Shown here: positions 7,508 to 18,789 of the stretch, piece by piece
Numbering within the stretch: the first letter of the stretch is position 1
Layout: each line of letters begins with the position of its first letter
Origin: Poseidonibacter lekithochrous
GTDB lineage: Bacteria > Campylobacterota > Campylobacteria > Campylobacterales > Arcobacteraceae
Assembly: GCF_013283835.1 (NCBI RefSeq)
Contig: NZ_CP054052.1
Location: 1,488,001-1,552,000 of the forward strand
Direction of reading: 5' to 3'
Length of the DNA: 64,000 bases
Made by a program: the position numbers and the translations under genes
Notes under the pieces: generated by a model
The model's input: the letters and a program-made list of their open reading frames with translations, nothing else
Told to the model about the DNA's origin: nothing
Databases searched by the model: none

Positions 7508-10500
7508 TTACTCTACACAAATAAATTCTTGTAGAGTACTTTTTGATTTTGATTGAAAATAAGAATCTGTGTCCCATGAACCATAAGAGTTTTTTAATGA
7601 AACTCCATCGGCTGAGCTGTGTTCTTCTTTTAACCAATAATTTTTACTTGTATCAAGACTTAAACTAGTTGCTAAATCTGACCAATTTAAACCAGAGTCT
7701 TTTGAAACTAATGTGCACTGAGCATTAGCATCTGTCCAGCTCTTCTGTGTAGATACTTTTGTATAACATTTGTCATTGATATACTCTCCTGCACAAGTTG
7801 CAGCAATTGCACTTGTAGTAAATGAAATACTAGTTTCATTTAAACTATTTTCATAAAGGTCTTTAATCCCATTATTTAGTGTAATTGTATATGATGAATT
7901 TGTTGCATAATCATTAGTATTTTTGATTGTTGCAATTTTATTGATATAAGTGATTGTTGTTTCTAGTTCAACATCACTACCATCTTTTTTTAGAATAATA
8001 TTTGAAGAATTTAAAGTGTCTTCTTTTATATCTTCATTAAAAGTAATAGTAATATTTACCTTTGTAGATATATCACTTGCATTATTGATAGGGGTAGAAG
8101 AACTTATACTAGGAGCAATTTTCTCACTTTTACAAATATAAAAAAATTGAGTACTTGAAGAATAATGACTAGATGTAGACCACCCACTATATGATTTATT
8201 TACATAGTTTAAATTCTCTTCTAACCAATACTTTTTACTTTCATCTAATTCAAGAGCTGTAGCAAATACTGTCCAATCAGAAATTGAATCTTTTGAAACT
8301 AATGTTTTATTTTCTGCTTGACAAGTATTCTTAGCAATAATATGTGTAAGTTCATCACTTGATTTTTCATAACAAATACTATTTAATTCAACGCCACTAC
8401 AAGTTGCAGCAATAGAATCACTTGTAAATGTAAATACTTTTTCTACTAAAGCATTTGCATATAAATCTGTAATTTCTGGTTTTAATGTGATTGTATATTC
8501 AGTACTTGTATTTAAATCATCATTAGGTTTTATACTTGCTATTTTGTTAGTATAAGTAACTGTTGTACTTATAACAGAATCACTAGAATCTTTAAAAATA
8601 ATAGTTGTATTAGAAATATTTTTTACTTCTTCATCAAAAGTAATTTTAAAAGTAGCTTTTGTTGATACTGAGCCTGAATCAAGTGGTTTTGTTAGTGTTG
8701 CAATTGGAGCTTGTGATTCTTTCATACAAAGAAAATATTTATCATTACTTTTACTTCCACTTGTATTTATTTTCCAAGTATCTGTTGCATAAGGGCTTGA
8801 ATAATATTCAATATAGTTTGAATAATATGAGCTTTCTTCATTTAACCAATATTCTTTATCTTGAGTTAAACTTAATGCACTTACAAATGCATCTAAATCA
8901 CTAATTAAAGATTTATTAACTAAAGTTTTATTTTGTTCCAAACAAGTAGTATTTGCATCTGCCCAATTTTTTTGAACACTTGAACTTTCATAACAAATAT
9001 TATCTATAACAGCACCTGCACAAGAAGAAGATGTTCCTGTAGAAAATGTTATTTCAATATCATTTTTTAAAGGATTATTTGAACTATCTTTTATTCCTGT
9101 ATTTAAAGTTAATTTATATGCTGTATTTTCTTCTAAATCAGTATTTGGATTAAGAGTTAATACTTTATTGTTGTATGTTAAAGTACTAGTTATAACAGTA
9201 TTATCCAAGTCTTTTTTTAGAATAACTGTAGAAGAGTCGTAATTTTTTATTTCTTCATTAAAAGTAATTGTAATATTTGATGAAATCCCAATATCGCTAT
9301 CTGCTATATTTGGATTAGAACTAAGTACTTGAGGTGCTGTTAAATCAGGAGCATCTTGTGTTGTAAAAGAGATTGATTTATCCCCAGAGTTGTTCCCCCA
9401 TGTACTTGGATTTAAAGCATTACCTGCTAAATCTTGAATATCTTGCTTTAATTCAAGAGTATATGTAGTTTCATAAGACAGATTTTCATTTAATGTTATT
9501 ATCAATTCTTTATTATTTTCTAGTTTTAAAGAATAATTAGTTGCATTATTTAATAGTATATTATTTTTATTAATTGTTGATTCGTCGATACTTTCATTGA
9601 ATACAATTTTAATTTCATTTGATACAGAAACATTACTATTTTTCAAGTTACTTGAAGAACTATCAAGTGTTGAATTAGTAAAATCTATCATAGGTAAAGT
9701 AGTATCTGGTGCAGCTTCGGTTTCAAAAGTAATTAAATGGTCTGTTTCAATATTGTTTCCACGTATATCTTTTATATTTGTTGTAATACTTAATGTATAT
9801 TCATATCCTTTTTCAAGAAGAGTATCTAAACTCCTTTTATTAAAAGTGACAATTTTATTTGCATATTCAGAGGAGATTGCTGTACTGCCATTTCTTTTTA
9901 ATATTACATTTATAGCAATATTTTCTGTTCTTATCTCTTCTGAAAATTCTATTGTGATATCATCAACAACAGAAACATTAATATCATTATTATTTAATAT
10001 TTTATTTCCACTTTTAATACTTACAAGACTTGGGTTAACTGTGTCTTCATAGTCTTTTATACATCTAAGAGGAATAGCTTTCGTAGTATGGATACTAGTA
10101 AAAGAAATTTTATCTGCAAATCTTAAAACATAAGCATCAAAAGAGATAAGAGATGATTTTGAATTACTTGTCCAAAGATATGTATCAGTATTAGACACAT
10201 TCATAGATCCATTTTCTGATCTGTACGATGATGTGGGAATTTTCAAAAATGAATCTTTTGGATTAACTGTACTATTATTTGTAAATTCTGCTTCAAGCTC
10301 ATATTTATTTGGAACTTTAAATCCACTTGGACAAACATTATTAATAGCATTAGTCCCAGTCCATAACTCATCACTACGTTGAGCATCTTCCCAATGGAAA
10401 GGAGCACTCTGAACAGTAATAAATTTTCCATCATTTGAAACATCACTTGTGATTAATTCATTTGAAGTTAATGAGTTTTTCTTTTCATGACCATTTAATT

Positions 10501-13500
10501 TTCTTCCCCATTGGAAATAATCACCTACACATAAAGCATCATTTGAACCATTACAAACTTCATTGGCACCTAGATTTCTATCTAGCCAGATTTTCCCAGT
10601 TTTAGGTGAAGTTACTTTGATATAATCTTTTCCATTAAATGAAATAAGATTTGGATTACTTGTATCAATATTTGAAATAATTATAGATTTAGGAGTTTCA
10701 TTTCCAACATCATCTTGGAATGTTACAGTTACATTTGTATTAGTTGTGAATATTTTTGTGAAATTATTACCATTTTTTGCCCATCCATTTGGAATTAAAA
10801 TATCAGAATCATTTGAAGAAAAAGTTACAATTATTGGATCTCTTGTTGTAGACTCTTCTGAATATATAGCATCACTTACTTCAGGAGCAGTTTTATCAAT
10901 ATTTGAGATTGAAATATTTTTATTTGTTTCATTTCCTAAATTATCAAGAAATGTTACAGTTTCATTTGTATTTGAATCAAAAACTTTTGTAAAATTTTTA
11001 GATGATTTTATCCATCCATTTGGAGTTTGTAAATTATTATCATCACTTGTAAAAGTAACAGTTACATTATCTTTTGTTTTTGTTGTAGTTGAGTAAGTTG
11101 CAGTACTAACAATTGGTTCAGCTTTATCAATATTTGTAATATTAACAGTAACACTTACATTATTACCAGCCAAATCAGTAAAAGTAATAGTTTCAGATTT
11201 ATTTAGACTATAAATTTTTGTAAATACATTTTCATTTTTATTCCAACCATCAACTGCATTTACATCTTCGTTTAATGTAATAGTTACAGTAACATCTTGA
11301 TTTGTTGCATCTGTAGTTGAATATTCTACTGTTGCAGTTGGGTTGTCTTTATCAATATTTGATATAGAGATGTTTTTAGAAACATTGTTTCCCACATTAT
11401 CACTGAATATTACTGATTCAGAAGTATTTTGAGAATAAGTTTTTTTGTATGTAAAAGTACCACTGTTTTCAGTTTTAAGCCAATTATTTGGAGCAGTTAA
11501 ATCTTCATTAGATGTAAAAGTAGCAGTTACATTAGAATTAGTTTTAATAATTGTTGAATATACAACCTCATTTAAAACAGGATTTGTTTTATCAATATTT
11601 GTAATATTAACAGTTGCAAGTACATTGTTACCAGCTAGATCTGTAAAAGTAATAGTTTCAGATTTATTCACACTATAAATTTTTGTAAATACATTTCCAT
11701 TTTTATTCCAACCATCAACTGCATTTACATCTTCGTTTAATGTAATAGTTACAGTAACATCTTGATTTGTTGCATCTGTAGTTGAATATTCTACTGTTGC
11801 AGTTGGATTGTCTTTATCAATATTTGAAATAGAGATATTTTTAGAAACATTGTTTCCCACATTATCACTGAATATTACTGATTCAGAAGTATTTTGAGAA
11901 TAAGTTTTTTTGTATGTAAAAGTACCACTGTTTTCAGTTTTAAGCCAATTATTTGGAGCAGTTAAATCTTCATCAGATGTAAAAGTAGCAGTTACATTAG
12001 AATTAGTTTTAATAATTGTTGAATATACAACCTCATTTAAAACAGGATTTGTTTTATCAATATTTGTAATATTAACAGTTGCAAGTACATTGTTACCAGC
12101 TAGATCTGTAAAAGTAATAGTTTCAGATTTATTCACACTATAAATTTTTGTAAATACATTTCCATTTTTATTCCAATCATCAACTGCATTTACATCTTCG
12201 TTTAATGTAATAGTTACAGTAACATCTTGATTTGTTGCATCTGTAGTTGAATATTCTACTGTAGCAATTGGATTAATTTTGTCAATATTATTAATAGCAA
12301 TATCTTGTTCAATACTATTACCCGCTGAATCACTAAAAGTAATAGTCTCAGATGTATTTACACTATAAGTTTTAGTAAATACTTTAGCATTCTTATTCCA
12401 ACCCTCAATAGTATTTACATCTTTAGAAAGAGTAATAGTTACAAGAATATCTTCTTTAGTTAATGATGTTGTAGAATAAGTAATACTAGCTATTGGTACA
12501 GTTTTATCTATATTAGAAATCACAACTTTCTTATTAGTTGTATTTCCTGCTTTATCAGAAAATACTATTGTTTCATCAACATTATTTGAATATATTTTTT
12601 TGATATTAGTATTTGTTTTTGTCCAACCATTTGGGATAAGTAAATCAATATCATTTGATATAAATGTTACTTCAACATCATTGTTAGTTAATTCTTTAAT
12701 AGAATATGATGCTCCAGATATTATTGGTGCAGTTTTATCAATATTTTCAATAAGAACATTTTTACTAGTAGAGTTCCCATGAATATCTTTAAATATAATA
12801 TTTTCATTTATATTATTTGTATAAGTTTTCGAATATGTATTATTGTTTTTTGTCCATCCTATAGGAGTTAATATATCCATATCGCTTACAAATGAAACAT
12901 TTATATTTTCATTTGTAATATCTTTTGTAGAATAAACGGGATCACTAACTATAATGTCAGTAATAACTTTTTTAGTAGTTGACACAAAATCTATAGTAAC
13001 ACCAGCAATAGTAAGTGTTGTAGTATTGTTACTATCACTTTTATTTGCACTTATATGTTTTATTTTTAGTGTCTGACCATTTGTTATAGTTGACTCACTA
13101 CTAATAAAATCATTATTATCAATTTTATAGAAACCATTTCGAATGGAAATTTTTGCATTACCTATAATTCCTGAAACAGTAATAGTATTTGACTCAATAT
13201 CTATATTTAAATTAGCATTAGATTTTTGAGTAAATTTAATATTGTGATGTAAAGTCAAAGTTCCATCAAGAACTGTATTATCTGGTGTATTATCAATATT
13301 TAGATTTGTTTCAAGGTTATTTGATATAGCATTTAAATCAATATTTTCTTCTTTGTTTTTTAACTCTTCAAATGCAATCATTGCATCACTATTAATTTCT
13401 CCATCATCTTTAATATCTTCTGATAATTTTTCTAAAGTATCTTCAGGATTATTTGTAGATAGTATTGACGCAGATATTTTTAGAAGTTGAGCATTTACTC

Positions 13501-14059
13501 TCTTTTTTGTTTGATCTTGCCCATCTGTTAAGTCTAACTCATCTAGTGAATTTTCTTCTAAATCTAAACTAAAGGCTTTTGCAACAGATTTTTCTGCACT
13601 TGCTTTAGCCTCATCAATGCCAATATTTGGCGATTGCTTTAAAGATTGTAAAATATTTCTAGATGCAATATGTGTAAGAATATTTATATTAGATTTTATT
13701 TCAACATTTGTTTTTGCATTTATAATAGAAACTAAATGACCATTTTGAATATAAGTGCCATTTACTTCATCAAAATATTCTCCCGTAATTTCTATTTGTG
13801 TAGGACCACTCCATGGAATGTCTAATTTATAGCTACCTTTGTTATCTAAAATTTTAGTCTCAATAGATTCATTAGTTTTTACACCATTTTCTAATTTATA
13901 TGCTTTAACTATAGAATCTTTTTTAAATGGTCCTTTTTGAGCATATCCACTTATATTTGAGTTATTAGAATTATTTATCTCACTATTGTTATTACACGCA
14001 ACTAAAAAAAACATCAAAAAAAATAAAAAAATTATTTTTTTAAAATAAAATACATACAT
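7508..14059 (-). CDS. Giant modular surface lipoprotein (2183 residues)
   Basis: The lipoprotein signal peptide has lipobox LVAC and an Asn/Ser-rich tether. Residues ~35-110 resemble a carboxypeptidase-regulatory-like beta domain (GYAQKGPFKKDSIVKAYKLENG). After an N-terminal region come about ten tandem Ig-like units of ~75 residues (about 375-1130), each with ...YST...VTFTS...W.KN...FTK.Y...ETV.F.D..GN and closing in ISNIDKTxP. A FISUMP-like domain follows (~1140-1335; GKIWLDRNLGA, GDYFQWGR, RCIKD). The C-terminal third alternates five Big_5-type Ig domains with three C-type-lectin-like modules (around 1680-1780, 1887-1977, 2083-2183; CYESSSVQKNWADANTTC, YWLNEE, ICVE). It is probably a long adhesin or matrix-binding fibre tethered by lipid. 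A Fur-box-like site lies 18-36 bp upstream of the start. Ribosome site AGGGG, spacing 6. Confidence 0.87.
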   Translation of the reverse strand: MYVFYFKKIIFLFFLMFFLVACNNNSEINNSNNSNISGYAQKGPFKKDSIVKAYKLENGVKTNESIETKILDNKGSYKLDIPWSGPTQIEITGEYFDEVNGTYIQNGHLVSIINAKTNVEIKSNINILTHIASRNILQSLKQSPNIGIDEAKASAEKSVAKAFSLDLEENSLDELDLTDGQDQTKKRVNAQLLKISASILSTNNPEDTLEKLSEDIKDDGEINSDAMIAFEELKNKEENIDLNAISNNLETNLNIDNTPDNTVLDGTLTLHHNIKFTQKSNANLNIDIESNTITVSGIIGNAKISIRNGFYKIDNNDFISSESTITNGQTLKIKHISANKSDSNNTTTLTIAGVTIDFVSTTKKVITDIIVSDPVYSTKDITNENINVSFVSDMDILTPIGWTKNNNTYSKTYTNNINENIIFKDIHGNSTSKNVLIENIDKTAPIISGASYSIKELTNNDVEVTFISNDIDLLIPNGWTKTNTNIKKIYSNNVDETIVFSDKAGNTTNKKVVISNIDKTVPIASITYSTTSLTKEDILVTITLSKDVNTIEGWNKNAKVFTKTYSVNTSETITFSDSAGNSIEQDIAINNIDKINPIATVEYSTTDATNQDVTVTITLNEDVNAVDDWNKNGNVFTKIYSVNKSETITFTDLAGNNVLATVNITNIDKTNPVLNEVVYSTIIKTNSNVTATFTSDEDLTAPNNWLKTENSGTFTYKKTYSQNTSESVIFSDNVGNNVSKNISISNIDKDNPTATVEYSTTDATNQDVTVTITLNEDVNAVDGWNKNGNVFTKIYSVNKSETITFTDLAGNNVLATVNITNIDKTNPVLNEVVYSTIIKTNSNVTATFTSNEDLTAPNNWLKTENSGTFTYKKTYSQNTSESVIFSDNVGNNVSKNISISNIDKDNPTATVEYSTTDATNQDVTVTITLNEDVNAVDGWNKNENVFTKIYSLNKSETITFTDLAGNNVSVTVNITNIDKAEPIVSTATYSTTTKTKDNVTVTFTSDDNNLQTPNGWIKSSKNFTKVFDSNTNETVTFLDNLGNETNKNISISNIDKTAPEVSDAIYSEESTTRDPIIVTFSSNDSDILIPNGWAKNGNNFTKIFTTNTNVTVTFQDDVGNETPKSIIISNIDTSNPNLISFNGKDYIKVTSPKTGKIWLDRNLGANEVCNGSNDALCVGDYFQWGRKLNGHEKKNSLTSNELITSDVSNDGKFITVQSAPFHWEDAQRSDELWTGTNAINNVCPSGFKVPNKYELEAEFTNNSTVNPKDSFLKIPTSSYRSENGSMNVSNTDTYLWTSNSKSSLISFDAYVLRFADKISFTSIHTTKAIPLRCIKDYEDTVNPSLVSIKSGNKILNNNDINVSVVDDITIEFSEEIRTENIAINVILKRNGSTAISSEYANKIVTFNKRSLDTLLEKGYEYTLSITTNIKDIRGNNIETDHLITFETEAAPDTTLPMIDFTNSTLDSSSSNLKNSNVSVSNEIKIVFNESIDESTINKNNILLNNATNYSLKLENNKELIITLNENLSYETTYTLELKQDIQDLAGNALNPSTWGNNSGDKSISFTTQDAPDLTAPQVLSSNPNIADSDIGISSNITITFNEEIKNYDSSTVILKKDLDNTVITSTLTYNNKVLTLNPNTDLEENTAYKLTLNTGIKDSSNNPLKNDIEITFSTGTSSSCAGAVIDNICYESSSVQKNWADANTTCLEQNKTLVNKSLISDLDAFVSALSLTQDKEYWLNEESSYYSNYIEYYSSPYATDTWKINTSGSKSNDKYFLCMKESQAPIATLTKPLDSGSVSTKATFKITFDEEVKNISNTTIIFKDSSDSVISTTVTYTNKIASIKPNDDLNTSTEYTITLKPEITDLYANALVEKVFTFTSDSIAATCSGVELNSICYEKSSDELTHIIAKNTCQAENKTLVSKDSISDWTVFATALELDESKKYWLEENLNYVNKSYSGWSTSSHYSSSTQFFYICKSEKIAPSISSSTPINNASDISTKVNITITFNEDIKEDTLNSSNIILKKDGSDVELETTITYINKIATIKNTNDYATNSSYTITLNNGIKDLYENSLNETSISFTTSAIAATCAGEYINDKCYTKVSTQKSWTDANAQCTLVSKDSGLNWSDLATSLSLDTSKNYWLKEEHSSADGVSLKNSYGSWDTDSYFQSKSKSTLQEFICVE
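11123..12262. repeat. 465-bp tandem repeat inside the giant lipoprotein gene
   Basis: The sequence repeats at an offset of 465 bp (155 codons, two Ig-like units) with very few differences. For example the segment at 11445 onward recurs at 11910, and the segment at 11222 recurs at 11687 and 12152. There are two full copies and a partial third. The protein alternates units beginning ATVEYSTTDATNQDVTVTI and VLNEVVYSTIIKTNSNVTA. The period keeps the reading frame, so copy number could change without breaking the gene. Confidence 0.9.
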
Positions 14060-14076: not shown

Positions 14077-14095
14077 ATTATTGATAATCATTATC
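14077..14095. promoter_or_regulatory. Fur-box-like operator between divergent operons
   Basis: Sixteen of 19 positions match the classical Fur consensus, including the exact core GATAATCATTATC at 14083-14095. It lies 18-36 bp upstream of the giant lipoprotein start, just past a possible minus-strand -10 (TAGAAT, 14113-14118). It is about 65-80 bp upstream of the plus-strand -10, so control of the lipoprotein operon is the more direct reading. Control of the thioredoxin/ApbE operon is possible. Confidence 0.6.
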
Positions 14096-14144: not shown

Positions 14145-14186
14145 AATGGTAACCATTATATAATATTGATATCCATAATCAATATT
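14145..14186 (+). promoter_or_regulatory. Promoter of the thioredoxin-ApbE operon with two inverted repeats
   Basis: A TATAAT -10 element (14159-14164) is flanked upstream by the perfect palindrome AATGGTAACCATT (14145-14157). Overlapping its 3' edge and the expected start site is an inverted repeat AATATTGAT (14162-14170) / ATCAATATT (14178-14186). Placement against the -10 suggests operator sites; the regulators are unknown. Confidence 0.5.
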
Positions 14187-14244
14187 GACAAAAGAAATAA
14201 AAACAGATAATATTTCGCCTAAATTTTTAAGAATAAGGACAAAA

Positions 14245-14697
14245 ATGAAAAAAGTTATATTGGTATTTTTACTTTTGGTGGTTACATCAAATGTTACATT
14301 CGCATATGAGGTTGGGGATAAGATTGATGATAGTGTAGCTACCAAAATAGGGAGTGTTACAGGTAAAGTTACAATAGTTGATTTTTTTGCATCATGGTGC
14401 GCTTCTTGTGAAAAAGAGTTACCACTTATTAATAAAATTAATGCTGAAAAACTAGATAATGTTCAAATTATTGGAATTGATACAGATGAGGAGGTTAGTG
14501 AAGGTATTGCCTTTCAAGAGAGACTTAAAGTAAACTTTAAAGTTATAAATGATGACAAGCATATTTTGGTAAATAAATTTTCACCTTATGGTATGCCAGC
14601 ATTATATTATATAAAAGACAATAAAGTCCAAAAAATTATTTTTGGTGCGATAGATGATATAGACAAGGTGATAAAAAAAGATTTAAAAGGTATGTAA
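14245..14697 (+). CDS. Periplasmic thioredoxin-like (TlpA-type) protein
   Basis: 150 residues from ATG 14245, chosen over an in-frame ATG 60 nt upstream because AAGGA sits 5 nt before it and it opens directly into a signal peptide (KKVILVFLLLVVTSNVTFA). The thioredoxin fold shows VDFFASWCASCEKE with the redox pair Cys52/Cys55 and a cis-Pro segment GMPALYYI. It should act outside the inner membrane as a disulfide reductase or metal-site chaperone. It is the first gene of an operon; the next ATG directly abuts its stop. DUF4266 has conserved Cys residues, so that small lipoprotein is a plausible client (inference). Confidence 0.87.
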   Translation: MKKVILVFLLLVVTSNVTFAYEVGDKIDDSVATKIGSVTGKVTIVDFFASWCASCEKELPLINKINAEKLDNVQIIGIDTDEEVSEGIAFQERLKVNFKVINDDKHILVNKFSPYGMPALYYIKDNKVQKIIFGAIDDIDKVIKKDLKGM

Positions 14698-14919
14698 ATG
14701 TTGAAAAAAAGTGTAGTTTTTATGATTGTAGTTATGACTTTCTTTACTGCTTGTAGTAAAGAAGTTAAGCCATGGGAAAAAGGAATTTTAGCTGAAGACA
14801 ATATGCAATTAGGTGGTGGTGATGCAATGATAAAAAAAGTGAATGAACATATTTTTACATCAAAAGAGGGTTCTTTTGGTGGAAATGGAATTGGTGGAGG
14901 AGGTTGCGGATGCAACTAA
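14698..14919 (+). CDS. DUF4266-family small lipoprotein
   Basis: 73 residues. A lipoprotein signal peptide ends in FTAC. The mature part carries the DUF4266 signature: V-K-PWEKG-LA, a central D-A, then HIFTSKEGSFGGNGIGGGG and a terminal CGCN. The family is uncharacterised and commonly found beside DUF3570, ApbE and thioredoxin genes, as here. The terminal Gly-rich CGC sequence could bind a metal or be a thioredoxin target, which is inference. The ATG abuts the previous stop and the 3' end overlaps the next gene by 10 bp, indicating tight co-expression. Confidence 0.88.
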   Translation: MLKKSVVFMIVVMTFFTACSKEVKPWEKGILAEDNMQLGGGDAMIKKVNEHIFTSKEGSFGGNGIGGGGCGCN

Positions 14920-16145
14920 AAAAATTATCTATATTAGCAATTAGTGCAGTAACAGTTGGAATTCCTGTATTAAATGCTGCTTCTTCAGATGAAGTTAAAT
15001 TTACACAAATGAAATATGAAGAAAATAATGACAGAATGAAAATTGATTTTTCTGTTTTAGATTTCAAAAAAGATTTTGGTACTGATTATACATTAAATAT
15101 GAGTTTATCATATGATTCTATGAGTGGTGGTACTCCTGTATGGGATACTAAATCTGGGGCATCATCAAATGCAACAGGAAAGAGTAATGATACTAGATGT
15201 ACAAACAATGCAACTTTATGTCAAGATACTAGTTCTAACAAAGAGTTACTTTCTGATGGGGAATCAAGTTTAGATAACTTTTCTTATAAAAATGCACAAA
15301 TAGATGATACAAGAAAAGCAGTTTCTCTTAGTTTGATAAAAAGAACTCCCAAAAGAGATGAAATATCAAGTGGTTTAGCATATTCCAAAGAAGAAGATTT
15401 TAAGAGTATTGAGGCTTCATTAGGTTATTTATATAATATTGATGATTTAAAGAATAATTCAATTAGTACTGGCATTTCTTTTCAAAAAAACTCTGCTCTG
15501 CATAGAAGGGATAATAACCAATGGAAAGATTTTGATATGGTTAACTTTCAAATTGGCTATTCAAAAGTATTTACAAAAAACTTTGTAGCACAAGCTAACT
15601 ATTTTATTTCTAAACAATCAGGAGAATTGAGTAATCCATATCAAACAATAGTTAGATATTTTAATATCTCAACTTCTTCATTTGATCCTGTTTACAACTA
15701 TTTTATTGCAAAAGAAAAAAGACCTGATTCAAAAGTTTCAAGTGGTATTAGTTTAGATTCTGCTTATAAATTCCATAAAAACATTTCATTACATGGAGCA
15801 TATAGATTCTATAGTGATGATTGGGGAATCACATCACATACAGTAACAATAAATTCATATATTAAAGTATTACCAAAGCTTACATTTATACCTTTAATTA
15901 GATATTACACTCAAAGTGCTGCTGATTTTTATAAAGCACATGATTCAAATGATAATCATTTTTCAAAAAATTCATATGGAAGTGCTGATGAGAGATTATC
16001 TAAGTATTATGGAACAACATATAGTTTAGGTTTTGAATATGAAATTATGAAAGATTTAAAAGTTAATATTATTGCAGCGACACAAAAACAATCATTTGGA
16101 TTAAAAATGGATTGGGCAAGTGCAGGGGTTAAATATGCATTCTAA
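14910..16145 (+). CDS. DUF3570-family outer-membrane-type protein with candidate flavinylation motif
   Basis: 411 residues from ATG 14910. A TTG two codons earlier is also possible, but GGAGG with 6-nt spacing points to the ATG. A Sec signal peptide (QLKKLSILAISAVTVGIPVLNA) precedes alternating aromatic/polar strands typical of a beta-barrel, ending in KYAF with C-terminal Phe. The segment YDSMSGGTP is the DUF3570 hallmark. Ten residues on is DTKSGAS (Asp79 to Ser85), an exact fit to the ApbE flavinylation consensus D-x-x-S/T-G-A-S/T; the hallmark itself (D69-S-M-S-G-G-T75) is a near fit. With apbE two genes downstream, covalent FMN attachment is an attractive inference. Probably in the outer membrane. 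Confidence 0.85.
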   Translation: MQLKKLSILAISAVTVGIPVLNAASSDEVKFTQMKYEENNDRMKIDFSVLDFKKDFGTDYTLNMSLSYDSMSGGTPVWDTKSGASSNATGKSNDTRCTNNATLCQDTSSNKELLSDGESSLDNFSYKNAQIDDTRKAVSLSLIKRTPKRDEISSGLAYSKEEDFKSIEASLGYLYNIDDLKNNSISTGISFQKNSALHRRDNNQWKDFDMVNFQIGYSKVFTKNFVAQANYFISKQSGELSNPYQTIVRYFNISTSSFDPVYNYFIAKEKRPDSKVSSGISLDSAYKFHKNISLHGAYRFYSDDWGITSHTVTINSYIKVLPKLTFIPLIRYYTQSAADFYKAHDSNDNHFSKNSYGSADERLSKYYGTTYSLGFEYEIMKDLKVNIIAATQKQSFGLKMDWASAGVKYAF

Positions 16146-16155
16146 AGGAACTTCT

Positions 16156-17904
16156 ATGAATAAAGTATTAAAGATAACATCTTTATCGTTAACAACTGCA
16201 ATACTATTACAAGGTTGTGGTAGTGGGGGAGGTGGAAAATATGAAGCTTCCTCTAATACTGTTGTTGCCTCTAATCAAAGTAGTTTTGTTCAAAAAGATG
16301 GATTAAGCGGTACAGTTTTATCAAGTACATATATTGTTGGTGCAGATGTTTGTTTTGATATTAATTCAAATGGACTTTGTGATTCAAATGAACCAAGTGA
16401 AAAAACATATGCAAATGGAAAGTTTTCTTTTTCTTCTTATAATACAAACTTAGGAAAAGATGCAAATTTAGTAGTAAATATAAATGATGAGTATGTTTTA
16501 ACAGCAACACAAAAAAGCTCAAATCAAGTGATTTCACCATTTACTACTATTACAAATAATGAGATATTATTTAATCCATATTCTAATGCAAAAGAGAGTG
16601 ATGCTGTAAATGATTTATTATCAGAATCTACAATTTTTAATAAGAGTTATTTAGAAGGGGAAGATTATTTACAATCAAATCCAAATATCGTAAATATTGA
16701 TGCTAATAATATTGTAAACTCTTTAAAAATATCATATGATTTAGATAAAACAAAACCTTTAGATACTATTGCAACAACTGTAGATGAAGTTTTAAAAAAT
16801 AAAAACTTTTCAGTAACAGTGTCAAGTATTCCTACTCAAAAGAGATATGATAGTTCTTATTCTTTAGAGTTAGATACAAAAACTTTAGATATTGATACAC
16901 AAGATGGAAATCAAAGAGCAGTAGGTGTGAAAGCTAGCTCAAACAGAACAGTAGTTCATTCAAAATGGAATAATAGGCTAACGATTATTGATTCTTCAAA
17001 TCAAAATAAAATTGCTACTAAAAATTATTTAGATGGTGCAAATGGAGATACTCAATCTGGACCTTCAGAGAAAATTTTATCAAAGATGATTATTACTGAT
17101 AACAACTCAAATGTATATTCTTTAACTAAAAAAGATAAAGTTTCAAATACTAACGATGGTTTAGGAATTTATAATAGTACATTCTCTGCAAGTGGAATTC
17201 CAACTTTAAAATATGCTTCTTTAAGTGTAGGAAATAATAATTATTATGCTCATAACTCTTTTACTGATTTTTCATTAAGTAATGATAAATCAAAGATTAT
17301 TGCTTCATCTGATTTAAATAAGATTTTTGTTTTTAATAGCTCAGATTTTAGTTCATCTTTACTTGAATTAAATGTATCAAGTAGTGTAAAAGCTGTAGCT
17401 TATAGCAGTGATGACAATCATTTCTTCGCATCATTTAATAACTCAATAAATGTATATAATGCAAATACAAATACTTTTGTTTCATCATTTTTATTAAATA
17501 AAGAGATAAAACAAATTGTTAGTGTAAGTGCAACTGAAATTCTAGTATCATTCTCTAATAGTAATGAAGTTAATTTATTAGATATATCTAACTTAAATGC
17601 ATTAAGTGTAAAAAGAGTTTTTACAGCAGATTCTATTGTGAATAAATTTGATTTATCAAGTGGTAAAAAGAGTTTTGCAGTTACGTTAAATAATTCAAAA
17701 GTAGTAAATAGTTTCTTATTAAGTGATAATAGTGTTGTTGCAAAGACTACACTTTTAAATAATGTAAATGATTTTGTATTTACAACAGATAGTAAACTTA
17801 TGGCTTTAACAGATTTTAAAGCTTATTATTTAAATTTAAAAGGTGATGGATTAGCTCCTACAACTGCCCAAAAGCAAACATGGAGAACTTCTCACAGAAG
17901 ATAA
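16156..17904 (+). CDS. Propeller-like surface lipoprotein in the ApbE operon
   Basis: 582 residues from ATG 16156 (AAAGGA 5 nt before it); a longer in-frame start 36 nt upstream overlaps the previous gene and hides the signal peptide. Lipobox LQGC is followed by a Gly-rich tether. The N-terminal module contains ADVCFDINSNGLCDSNEP, an Asp/Asn-rich loop resembling a calcium-binding motif, and GKFSFSSY. The C-terminal ~320 residues show repeated short strands with Ser/Asn turns (RLTIIDSS, KIFVFNSS, SINVYNANTN, EVNLLDISN), suggestive of a beta-propeller. The end is basic (TWRTSHRR). It is related to the partial lipoprotein at 1-1343 across the divergent promoter, linking the two operons. Function unknown. 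Confidence 0.8.
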   Translation: MNKVLKITSLSLTTAILLQGCGSGGGGKYEASSNTVVASNQSSFVQKDGLSGTVLSSTYIVGADVCFDINSNGLCDSNEPSEKTYANGKFSFSSYNTNLGKDANLVVNINDEYVLTATQKSSNQVISPFTTITNNEILFNPYSNAKESDAVNDLLSESTIFNKSYLEGEDYLQSNPNIVNIDANNIVNSLKISYDLDKTKPLDTIATTVDEVLKNKNFSVTVSSIPTQKRYDSSYSLELDTKTLDIDTQDGNQRAVGVKASSNRTVVHSKWNNRLTIIDSSNQNKIATKNYLDGANGDTQSGPSEKILSKMIITDNNSNVYSLTKKDKVSNTNDGLGIYNSTFSASGIPTLKYASLSVGNNNYYAHNSFTDFSLSNDKSKIIASSDLNKIFVFNSSDFSSSLLELNVSSSVKAVAYSSDDNHFFASFNNSINVYNANTNTFVSSFLLNKEIKQIVSVSATEILVSFSNSNEVNLLDISNLNALSVKRVFTADSIVNKFDLSSGKKSFAVTLNNSKVVNSFLLSDNSVVAKTTLLNNVNDFVFTTDSKLMALTDFKAYYLNLKGDGLAPTTAQKQTWRTSHRR

Positions 17905-17916
17905 GGTGGAAATAAT

Positions 17917-18789
17917 ATGAAACTATTTAAATTTACTTTTCAAGCAATGACAACTCCTTGTGAGGTTCAGATTTATGATAATGATGAAATAAAAGCTGCA
18001 AATTGTTTTGAAGAAATTAAAAAACACACATATGAATTAGAGAAAAAATATAATTTCTTTGATTCAAAATCATATTTAAATAGAATAATAAATAATAGAA
18101 AGAGAAATAAAATATCAATTGATTCTCAAACATATGAGATATTATCTTTAGTAAAAGAAATATCTTTAAAAACAAGAGGTGTTTTTGATATTAGTGTAGG
18201 AACAATTAAACATTGTTATAATCAAAATAGTTTAAAAGATGTAAATAATTGTCTTTTTTCTTTGAAAGATAAAATGGGTATTGATTCATGGTATTTAAAA
18301 GATAACAAATTAAACTTTAGATTTAGAGAAACTAAACTAGATTTAGGTGGAGTTATTAAAGAATATTCTGTTGATAAAGCTGTAAGTATCACAAAAAGTT
18401 ATGGAATAAAATCTGCATTAATTAATTTTGGTGGGGATTTATTTGCGATTGGATGTAAACCTGATAATGAGCCTTTTTGTATAGGAATTAAAAATCCAGA
18501 AGATAAAGAAAATAATTTACTTTTTGTTAATATTTCTAATCAGGCTTTAACAACATCCGCAAATTATGAACGTAATAAAACTATAGAAAATGTTGAATTT
18601 TCTCATATAATATCAAAAGAAGAAAATAAAGATGAAATTATATCTTCTACAATAATTTCATCTTCAACTTTAGAAAGTGGCATTTTTTCAACTACTTTTA
18701 TGATTAATACTGAATGTGAAATTCTTGATAATATGAAAGTAGTTTTAATAGATAAAAAGCTAAATTTACATCAAAATTTAGTTGATTAA
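17917..18789 (+). CDS. apbE: ApbE-family FAD:protein FMN transferase
   Basis: 290 residues. It would transfer FMN from FAD onto Ser/Thr in D-x-x-S/T-G-A-S/T motifs. Family signatures in order: TRGVFDISVG, KLDLGGVIKEYSVDKA, SALINFGGDLFAIG, ALTTSANYER, FSHI and a C-terminal SGIFSTTFMI. Ribosome site AGGTGG precedes the ATG. The protein starts directly with the catalytic domain: no signal peptide or lipobox is present, and an in-frame stop 15 nt upstream rules out a hidden one. Most bacterial ApbE proteins are exported, so this one is either cytoplasmic or uses another route. Last gene of the operon; the likely substrate is the DUF3570 protein (inference). Confidence 0.9.
   Translation: MKLFKFTFQAMTTPCEVQIYDNDEIKAANCFEEIKKHTYELEKKYNFFDSKSYLNRIINNRKRNKISIDSQTYEILSLVKEISLKTRGVFDISVGTIKHCYNQNSLKDVNNCLFSLKDKMGIDSWYLKDNKLNFRFRETKLDLGGVIKEYSVDKAVSITKSYGIKSALINFGGDLFAIGCKPDNEPFCIGIKNPEDKENNLLFVNISNQALTTSANYERNKTIENVEFSHIISKEENKDEIISSTIISSSTLESGIFSTTFMINTECEILDNMKVVLIDKKLNLHQNLVD

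Follow-up and report, generated by a model that had tools for sequence, protein, structure and literature searches.

The window analysed here, a stretch of 64 000 nucleotides (nt) from Poseidonibacter lekithochrous (contig NZ_CP054052.1, positions 1 488 001 to 1 552 000), contains a five-gene operon (14245–18789; Table 1) that encodes an exported thioredoxin-like protein, a small DUF4266 lipoprotein, a DUF3570 protein modelled as an outer-membrane β-barrel, a propeller lipoprotein and an ApbE-family transferase of flavin mononucleotide (FMN). On balance, and with somewhat better than even confidence, we read these genes as an outer-membrane flavin electron-transfer unit: the barrel would be loaded in the cytosol by a rearranged ApbE, and electrons would pass from thioredoxin via DUF4266 to flavins at the cell surface. 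The ApbE has lost its signal peptide and carries a paired exchange, Asp to Gly and Gly to Glu, in its active site.

A variant of a published flavinylation cluster

An earlier note, made from the DNA sequence alone, had described an operon for a periplasmic dithiol protein, a lipoprotein ending in GGGGCGCN, an outer-membrane-type protein, a propeller-like lipoprotein and a flavin transferase. All five open reading frames (ORFs) were found on the plus strand and agree with this description: gene 1 combines a signal peptide with WCASC, DUF4266 has a lipobox and the noted ending, DUF3570 is modelled as a 16-stranded barrel, gene 5 belongs to the ApbE family and the C-terminal half of the gene 4 model matches WD40 propellers (template modelling score, TM-score, up to 0.79 on the target), with low overall confidence in that model (predicted local distance difference test, pLDDT, 56.5; three sequences). 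The gene ends were said to abut or overlap, which holds for genes 1 and 2 (abutting) and genes 2 and 3 (overlapping by 10 nt) but not for the remaining junctions, where gaps of 10 nt (genes 3 and 4) and 12 nt (genes 4 and 5) are present.

In Chlorobium luteolum, the DUF3570 protein is flavinylated by its own ApbE at two [S/T]GA[S/T] motifs (Meheust et al. 2021, PMC8238504). Among the DsbD clusters of that work, 227 hold DUF3570 and 221 hold DUF4266, which ends in a C-terminal CxC motif; 316 more clusters combine ApbE, DUF3570, thioredoxin and DUF4266 without DsbD. The window operon contains the same four families as these 'DsbD systems' and has in common with them a DUF3570 protein with SGAS sites, an adjacent ApbE, the C-terminal CxC of DUF4266 and a thioredoxin partner. 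It differs in its additional propeller lipoprotein and in the lack of an adjacent DsbD, which is absent from 14245–18789 but is not required, as the 316 published clusters show. A further difference concerns the transferase, since the ApbE assayed in PMC8238504 bears a signal peptide (truncated for the assay) whereas that of the window is cytosolic and lacks the conserved Asp. The operon belongs, as a variant form, to this published kind, which places flavin on an outer-membrane barrel.

Covalent flavin chemistry at an outer-membrane protein, the central inference of the earlier note, is well supported by the demonstrated Chlorobium substrate, the motif in the window and the barrel model; flavinylation of DUF3570 being in print, the inference was right but not new. 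The note overlooked that the gene set and its ApbE-dependent flavinylation are already published (PMC8238504), though the system is poorly understood. Also overlooked were the cytosolic location and altered active site of the ApbE and the propeller protein as a likely substrate. A literature search for DUF3570 and DUF4266 with their Pfam numbers returned PMC8238504 alone, the term 'cytoplasmic ApbE' gave no match, and a 2024 article on flavinylated structures (PMC11334425) does not name DUF3570, to judge from that same literature search. The passages of PMC8238504 consulted describe neither the altered ApbE nor the side on which the flavin sites lie. Three elements of our reading go beyond the literature searched: the altered, unsignalled ApbE, the side of the 16-strand barrel on which the flavin sites are predicted and the propeller as a putative second substrate.

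For comparison, 89 loci were collected by DUF3570 similarity, comprising the window, 8 loci from other searches and 80 from a profile of five DUF3570 proteins (80 of 406 confirmed loci in named genomes); some contigs stop inside the cluster. DUF4266 was found in 87 of these loci, a thioredoxin-like gene in 82, ApbE in 71 and DsbD in 23. The recurrence of the gene set in other bacteria, as previously suggested, is not chance, and ApbE, whose absence from most loci had been named as a refutation, is present in the majority. Several of the loci without ApbE end early; three (L025, L030 and L045) continue for more than 4 kilobases without it, and the genome of the L015/L040 locus encodes an ApbE of the same type on a different contig (L104).

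Table 1. Features of the operon and its upstream region (positions in the window)
Feature	Coordinates	Strand	Basis or remark
Exported thioredoxin-like (TlpA/ResA type) dithiol protein	14245..14697	+	Signal peptide, WCASC; Pfam Thioredoxin 1.9e-10
DUF4266 small lipoprotein	14698..14919	+	PF14086 5.7e-18; lipobox FFTAC; ends GGGGCGCN
DUF3570 16-stranded outer-membrane β-barrel, predicted flavinylation substrate	14910..16145	+	PF12094 4.1e-53; AlphaFold model
Lipoprotein with C-terminal WD40-type β-propeller	16156..17904	+	LLQGC; Pfam: weak WD40-like matches only
ApbE-family FMN transferase without signal peptide (cytosolic), Glu/Gly active-site type	17917..18789	+	PF02424 3e-46
Codons of the C-terminal Cys-Gly-Cys-Asn of DUF4266, with the DUF3570 start codon (14910) inside	14905..14916	+	
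Predicted flavin site 1 of DUF3570, D69-S-M-S-G-G-T75 (Gly for Ala)	15114..15134	+	Within strand β3; alignment and model strands
Predicted flavin site 2 of DUF3570, D79-T-K-S-G-A-S85 (full consensus)	15144..15164	+	End of β3, start of long loop L2
Cysteine pair C97/C104 in the loop of site 2	15198..15221	+	Sequence; two Cys in frame
Probable second flavin site, D298-T-Q-S-G-P-S304 of the propeller lipoprotein (degenerate in the window)	17047..17067	+	Aligned with two relatives
Lys148-Glu149 of ApbE (family consensus Lys-Gly)	18358..18363	+	Alignment
Gly255 to Thr259 of ApbE, Gly255 in place of the Mg-ligand Asp	18679..18693	+	Alignment
Fur-box-like palindrome ATTATTGATAATCATTATC	14077..14095	.	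16/19 to the Fur-box consensus
Sigma-70-like promoter match TTGACA-17-TAATAT	14185..14213	+	Upstream of operon; 40 such matches in region versus 37.9 expected

An altered ApbE clade without signal peptide

Sequence–structure matches (1vrm, E = 5.8e-18; 2o18, E = 4.7e-12) and the alignment identify the window ApbE as a member of the family that is not of the canonical active-site type. With canonical ApbE, Ftp and FmnB (Escherichia coli 4XGV, Listeria monocytogenes 7ESA, T. maritima 1VRM) it shares the Ser, His and Thr positions (here Ser214, His230 and Thr259); it differs from them in Gly255, which replaces the magnesium-ligand Asp (E. coli D280, L. monocytogenes D301, V. cholerae D285; alignment with relatives and solved structures), in the Glu that follows the Lys of Lys-Gly, and in having neither an export signal nor a lipoprotein anchor. 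There is no room for a signal peptide: the open frame extends just 4 codons upstream of the ATG, and residue 11 is already the first of the Pfam domain. In the E. coli enzyme, metal 1 is bound by Asp280 (side chain and main chain), by Thr284 and by the Thr166 carbonyl, and metal 2 by Glu169 (PMC4767422); in L. monocytogenes FmnB, Asp301 binds both magnesium ions (PMC8906456). In the alignment, E. coli D280, T284, T166 and E169 map to Gly255, Thr259, Gly145 and Lys148 of the window ApbE, so that Glu149 neighbours a metal-binding position. According to a 2025 review, Ser241, His257 and Asp285 are the only conserved key residues of the ApbE catalytic centre, and cytosolic ApbEs are known to exist (PMC12052999). 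The Klebsiella enzyme described there likewise has no signal peptide; its substrate is a soluble fumarate reductase, whereas the apparent substrate in the window is an exported barrel.

The paired exchange is found in most of the 71 DUF3570-linked ApbEs: 58 have Glu149/Gly255 and 11 have Gly/Asp, 2 are incomplete and no mixed pair occurs. Of the 58, all but one keep Ser, His and Thr in the active site (57), the exception (L098) deviating at its C-terminal end. The Gly/Asp copies come from Bacteroidota (nine) and from two Campylobacterota loci (L016 and L017). The ApbEs retrieved from 12 named genomes (9 that have the altered type and 3 from Bacteroidota) were all of the Gly/Asp type where they did not adjoin DUF3570. 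In a tree of 115 ApbE rows, all 64 Glu/Gly rows form one clade (support 100/97), which spans Campylobacterota, Pseudomonadota and two candidate phyla; the exchange therefore arose once and then stayed invariant. All 40 rows that lie outside this clade and are unlinked to DUF3570 are canonical, and DUF3570 partners occupy three separate places in the tree. A hydrophobic stretch before the domain, scored by a simple hydropathy count and not by a trained predictor, was present in 1 of the 64 Glu/Gly rows, in 39 of the 40 canonical rows unlinked to DUF3570 and in 9 of the 11 canonical linked rows (L016 and L017 being without it). Both the tree and this count leave out 17 rows: L020, L067 and L098 (split, cut or misaligned), 13 repeats and L156. 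The last was left out as a presumed repeat and is a second DUF3570-linked ApbE of the altered type in a Moritella genome (G298), distinct from the L028 copy.

The barrel model and its predicted flavin sites

The AlphaFold model of DUF3570 (49 aligned sequences; pLDDT 87.8; predicted TM-score 0.84) has 16 strands, with three long loops among the connections after odd strands (L2, L5 and L7 of 43, 35 and 30 residues) and turns of at most 6 residues after even strands. Its structure matches are general barrels, for example FadL and OmpG, mostly with TM-scores of 0.3–0.5 on the query. In outer-membrane barrels the long-loop side is usually extracellular. In the model, every flavin site lies on this side, including the third site of other Campylobacterota members, which maps to loop L4; such a placement is consistent with flavin loading before export. 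Conserved polar or aromatic residues are likewise concentrated in the long-loop half (24 of 28; Fisher P = 0.008).

Site 2 is the sole D-x-x-[ST]-G-A-[ST] motif in the six frames of the window. When the strict motif (first residue D or E) was counted in the 89 DUF3570 frames, three sites were found in 20 frames, two in 4, one in 45 and none in 20. In Bacteroidota the leading acid is mostly missing and [ST]GA[ST] is kept. Several DUF3570 partners of the altered ApbE have Gly, Ser or Pro at the Ala position. No strict motif is present in DUF3570 of L053, L057, L061, L066 and L069, the first two of which have TGSS at site 1, so that the altered enzyme may not require the Ala. In ten loci (L027, L029, L030, L034, L038, L039, L040, L045, L046 and L049) a Cys directly precedes a flavin site, mostly the third (CDxxSGAS or CDxxTGAS). 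L016 and L017 represent a second Campylobacterota class of DUF3570, in which SGAS is replaced by VGAS or AGAS, the unsignalled ApbE is canonical and two lipoproteins are encoded upstream, those of L016 with cytochrome-like matches. Motif matches outside DUF3570 and the propellers, in a glutamate-synthase-like ORF (L042), another ORF (L091), a short ORF (L052) and an ApbE (L017), were judged to be chance.

Other candidate substrates and phylogenetic spread

Relatives of the propeller lipoprotein were found at only two of the 89 loci (L022 and L024), directly after DUF3570; in L024 the ApbE gene follows, and in L022 the contig ends within the propeller gene. At the position of DTQSGPS in the window these relatives have full motifs (DAITGAS and DSVSGAS). 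Across the 222 092 residues of 674 neighbouring ORFs there are two strict motifs, which corresponds to 0.004 expected per 450 residues. The propeller lipoprotein is thus, from its aligned motifs, probably a second flavinylation substrate. No second full-length copy was found in 397 Campylobacterota genomes, and the matches to other proteins, in 5 genomes, are confined to the N-terminal domain, so that the argument draws on the three operon relatives. Six other Campylobacterota DUF3570 operons (L029, L030, L038, L039, L045 and L049) have a recurrent upstream gene. The single member scanned shows a weak Kelch match, and none of the six carries the strict motif.

Five ApbEs of the altered type from Campylobacterota (L106–L110) are without a DUF3570 neighbour; the match for L106 is recorded with a stop codon in frame. 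In four such neighbourhoods (L162–L165; genomes G272, G229, G206 and G289) ApbE adjoins a small protein without obvious signal, which has an EF-hand in both members scanned with Pfam and carries in its N-terminal stretch SQSGAS (two members) or SQSSAS (two members). On this sequence evidence, the small EF-hand-type neighbour is a possible further substrate. At E 0.001, 6 of 298 Campylobacterota genomes gave a DUF3570 match, one of which was put down to chance; within the genus, 1 genome of 10 has DUF3570. Given this rarity the operon is an accessory, perhaps acquired, trait. The L018 candidate (genome G210), a single below-cutoff DUF3570 match whose surroundings contain no further gene of the set, was rejected as chance.

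Proposed mechanism and points against it

We infer the cytosolic timing, the activity of the window ApbE, the path and direction of the electrons and the final acceptor as follows. The cytosolic ApbE, with its rearranged metal site, would attach FMN to Ser85 of the DUF3570 precursor before export, perhaps also to Thr75, and might flavinylate the propeller lipoprotein as well. The exported DUF3570 would then fold as a 16-stranded barrel with the flavins on its extracellular rim. Electrons would run from membrane DsbD (one copy in the genome, outside the window) to the periplasmic thioredoxin, which would hand them to the lipid-anchored DUF4266 at its Cys-Gly-Cys tail, and from there through the barrel mouth to the flavins, reducing something outside. 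DUF4266 ends in CGC[N/R/K] in 86 of 87 frames, and in 46 of 87 loci the DUF3570 start lies inside the DUF4266 end; from the shape of the Gly-rich tail and its near-invariant CGC end, we guess that it serves as a swinging arm. The unit would resemble MtrCAB-type porin–cytochrome conduits only in how it works, in that electrons cross the outer membrane through a barrel; in contrast to them, the window operon has flavin and dithiol carriers and no haem proteins, and it is not a member of that group.

Several points weigh against this reading. We know of no assayed member with the altered ApbE, and of no precedent for Sec export of an FMN-bearing barrel precursor. The electron path and acceptor are drawn from gene neighbourhood only, and the orientation of the barrel from general rules, not from the model. 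Twenty of the 89 DUF3570 frames have no strict motif, the system is dispensable in a genus where one genome in ten has it, and the paired Glu/Gly change is one event, not many independent ones. In FmnB, replacement of metal-contacting residues by Ala greatly reduces or abolishes activity (PMC8906456).

Alternative explanations

The last point leads to the possibility that the Glu/Gly ApbE is inactive or otherwise used, and that DUF3570 either receives its flavin from the other, exported ApbE of the genome or carries none. The magnesium-ligand Asp, which FmnB needs (PMC8906456), is gone, and the second ApbE of the genome (L003) has the canonical Gly/Asp pair and a signal-like start. We nevertheless think this unlikely: Ser, His and Thr are conserved across the clade, unlike in most dead enzymes; L003 has a NosR-like membrane protein and the sole FMN_bind match of the genome as neighbours, and hence its own substrate; and nine genomes keep the altered type in the DUF3570 operon despite canonical exported copies. 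Alternatively, this may be an ordinary DUF3570 cluster, as the published gene set and the canonical exported ApbE of Bacteroidota members could suggest, with an ApbE exported by an unrecognised route and an active-site exchange due to neutral drift. A neutral change would not be expected to be invariant over 64 tree rows from several phyla, and we regard this as improbable; signal loss is also seen in the separate Gly/Asp copies L016 and L017, elsewhere in the tree. Similarly low is the probability we give to a role in disulfide care, in which thioredoxin and the CGC lipoprotein would tend the disulfides of DUF3570 loops (assembly or repair) and the flavin would be an oxidant or structural group and not an outward electron step. 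The Cys pair beside site 2 in the window and the Cys directly before the third site in many Campylobacterota members would suit such a role, yet in many DUF3570 proteins the frame contains 0 or 1 Cys, and DUF4266 retains its CGC end all the same.

The remaining alternative is a ferric reductase at the cell surface that serves iron uptake under Fur control, and the earlier note had pointed in this direction with a Fur-like site in the promoter region and a possible iron or metal link. The site is present in the intergenic region, its 16/19 match being reached in 1 of 60 shuffles, and one of nine such sites in the genome precedes a gene assigned by eye to the Fur family, which would suit a genuine Fur site. 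VIT1 iron transporters occur in 25 published DUF3570 clusters (PMC8238504), and the response regulators tested, from loci that have them near DUF3570, were nearest to metal-response or PmrA/QseB families, all below cut-offs. However, the 19-mer lies nearer the start of the divergent minus-strand gene (14059) than that of the operon (14245); it is not conserved upstream of the 80 other operons (mean best match 11.58/19 versus 11.37 in shuffles; 81 loci), and the nine genome sites compare with 21 for a reversed control pattern, that is, no excess. Clustering of the neighbours of 82 loci (7 near-copies among the 89 were left out beforehand) highlighted two-component systems (response regulators in 32 loci, histidine kinases in 31) and neither a metabolic partner nor a standout iron gene. 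A Fur/iron regulon was not adopted as the main explanation and is kept as a rival only, one that we consider somewhat unlikely; the link to iron or metal is weak.

Upstream region and neighbouring genes

The divergent gene (7508–14059, minus strand) encodes a lipoprotein of 2183 residues that contains Big_5 repeats. The Fur-like site, 17 bases upstream of the start codon of this gene, may belong to it. Promoter and terminator scans remained at chance level. Two-component systems lie beside DUF3570 operons at, for example, L013, L014, L030, L045, L053, L060, L065 and L074, and no two-component pair was found among the ORFs listed around the window operon. A scan for defence families gave none.

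Implications

More broadly, we offer a wider view tentatively, and regard it as less likely than the unit proposed for the window. In a whole clade of ApbE, the carboxylate that binds the metal would have shifted from the ADxxxT Asp to a Glu that follows the Lys of Lys-Gly; these enzymes would stay in the cytosol and would load FMN on unfolded barrel precursors that are later exported. The result would be a surface flavin wire fed by a lipid-tethered, Gly-rich DUF4266 dithiol arm, a haem-free counterpart of porin–cytochrome conduits. Such an enzyme would tolerate Gly, Ser or Pro in place of the Ala and would have taken other substrates, namely the propeller lipoprotein and, in Campylobacterota without DUF3570 nearby, a cytosolic EF-hand protein. 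ApbE is described as typically periplasmic, with three conserved active-site residues. If our reading is true, a widespread cytosolic clade that lacks one of these residues and is tied to an outer-membrane barrel would alter ideas on where in the cell flavins are covalently added, and by what means.

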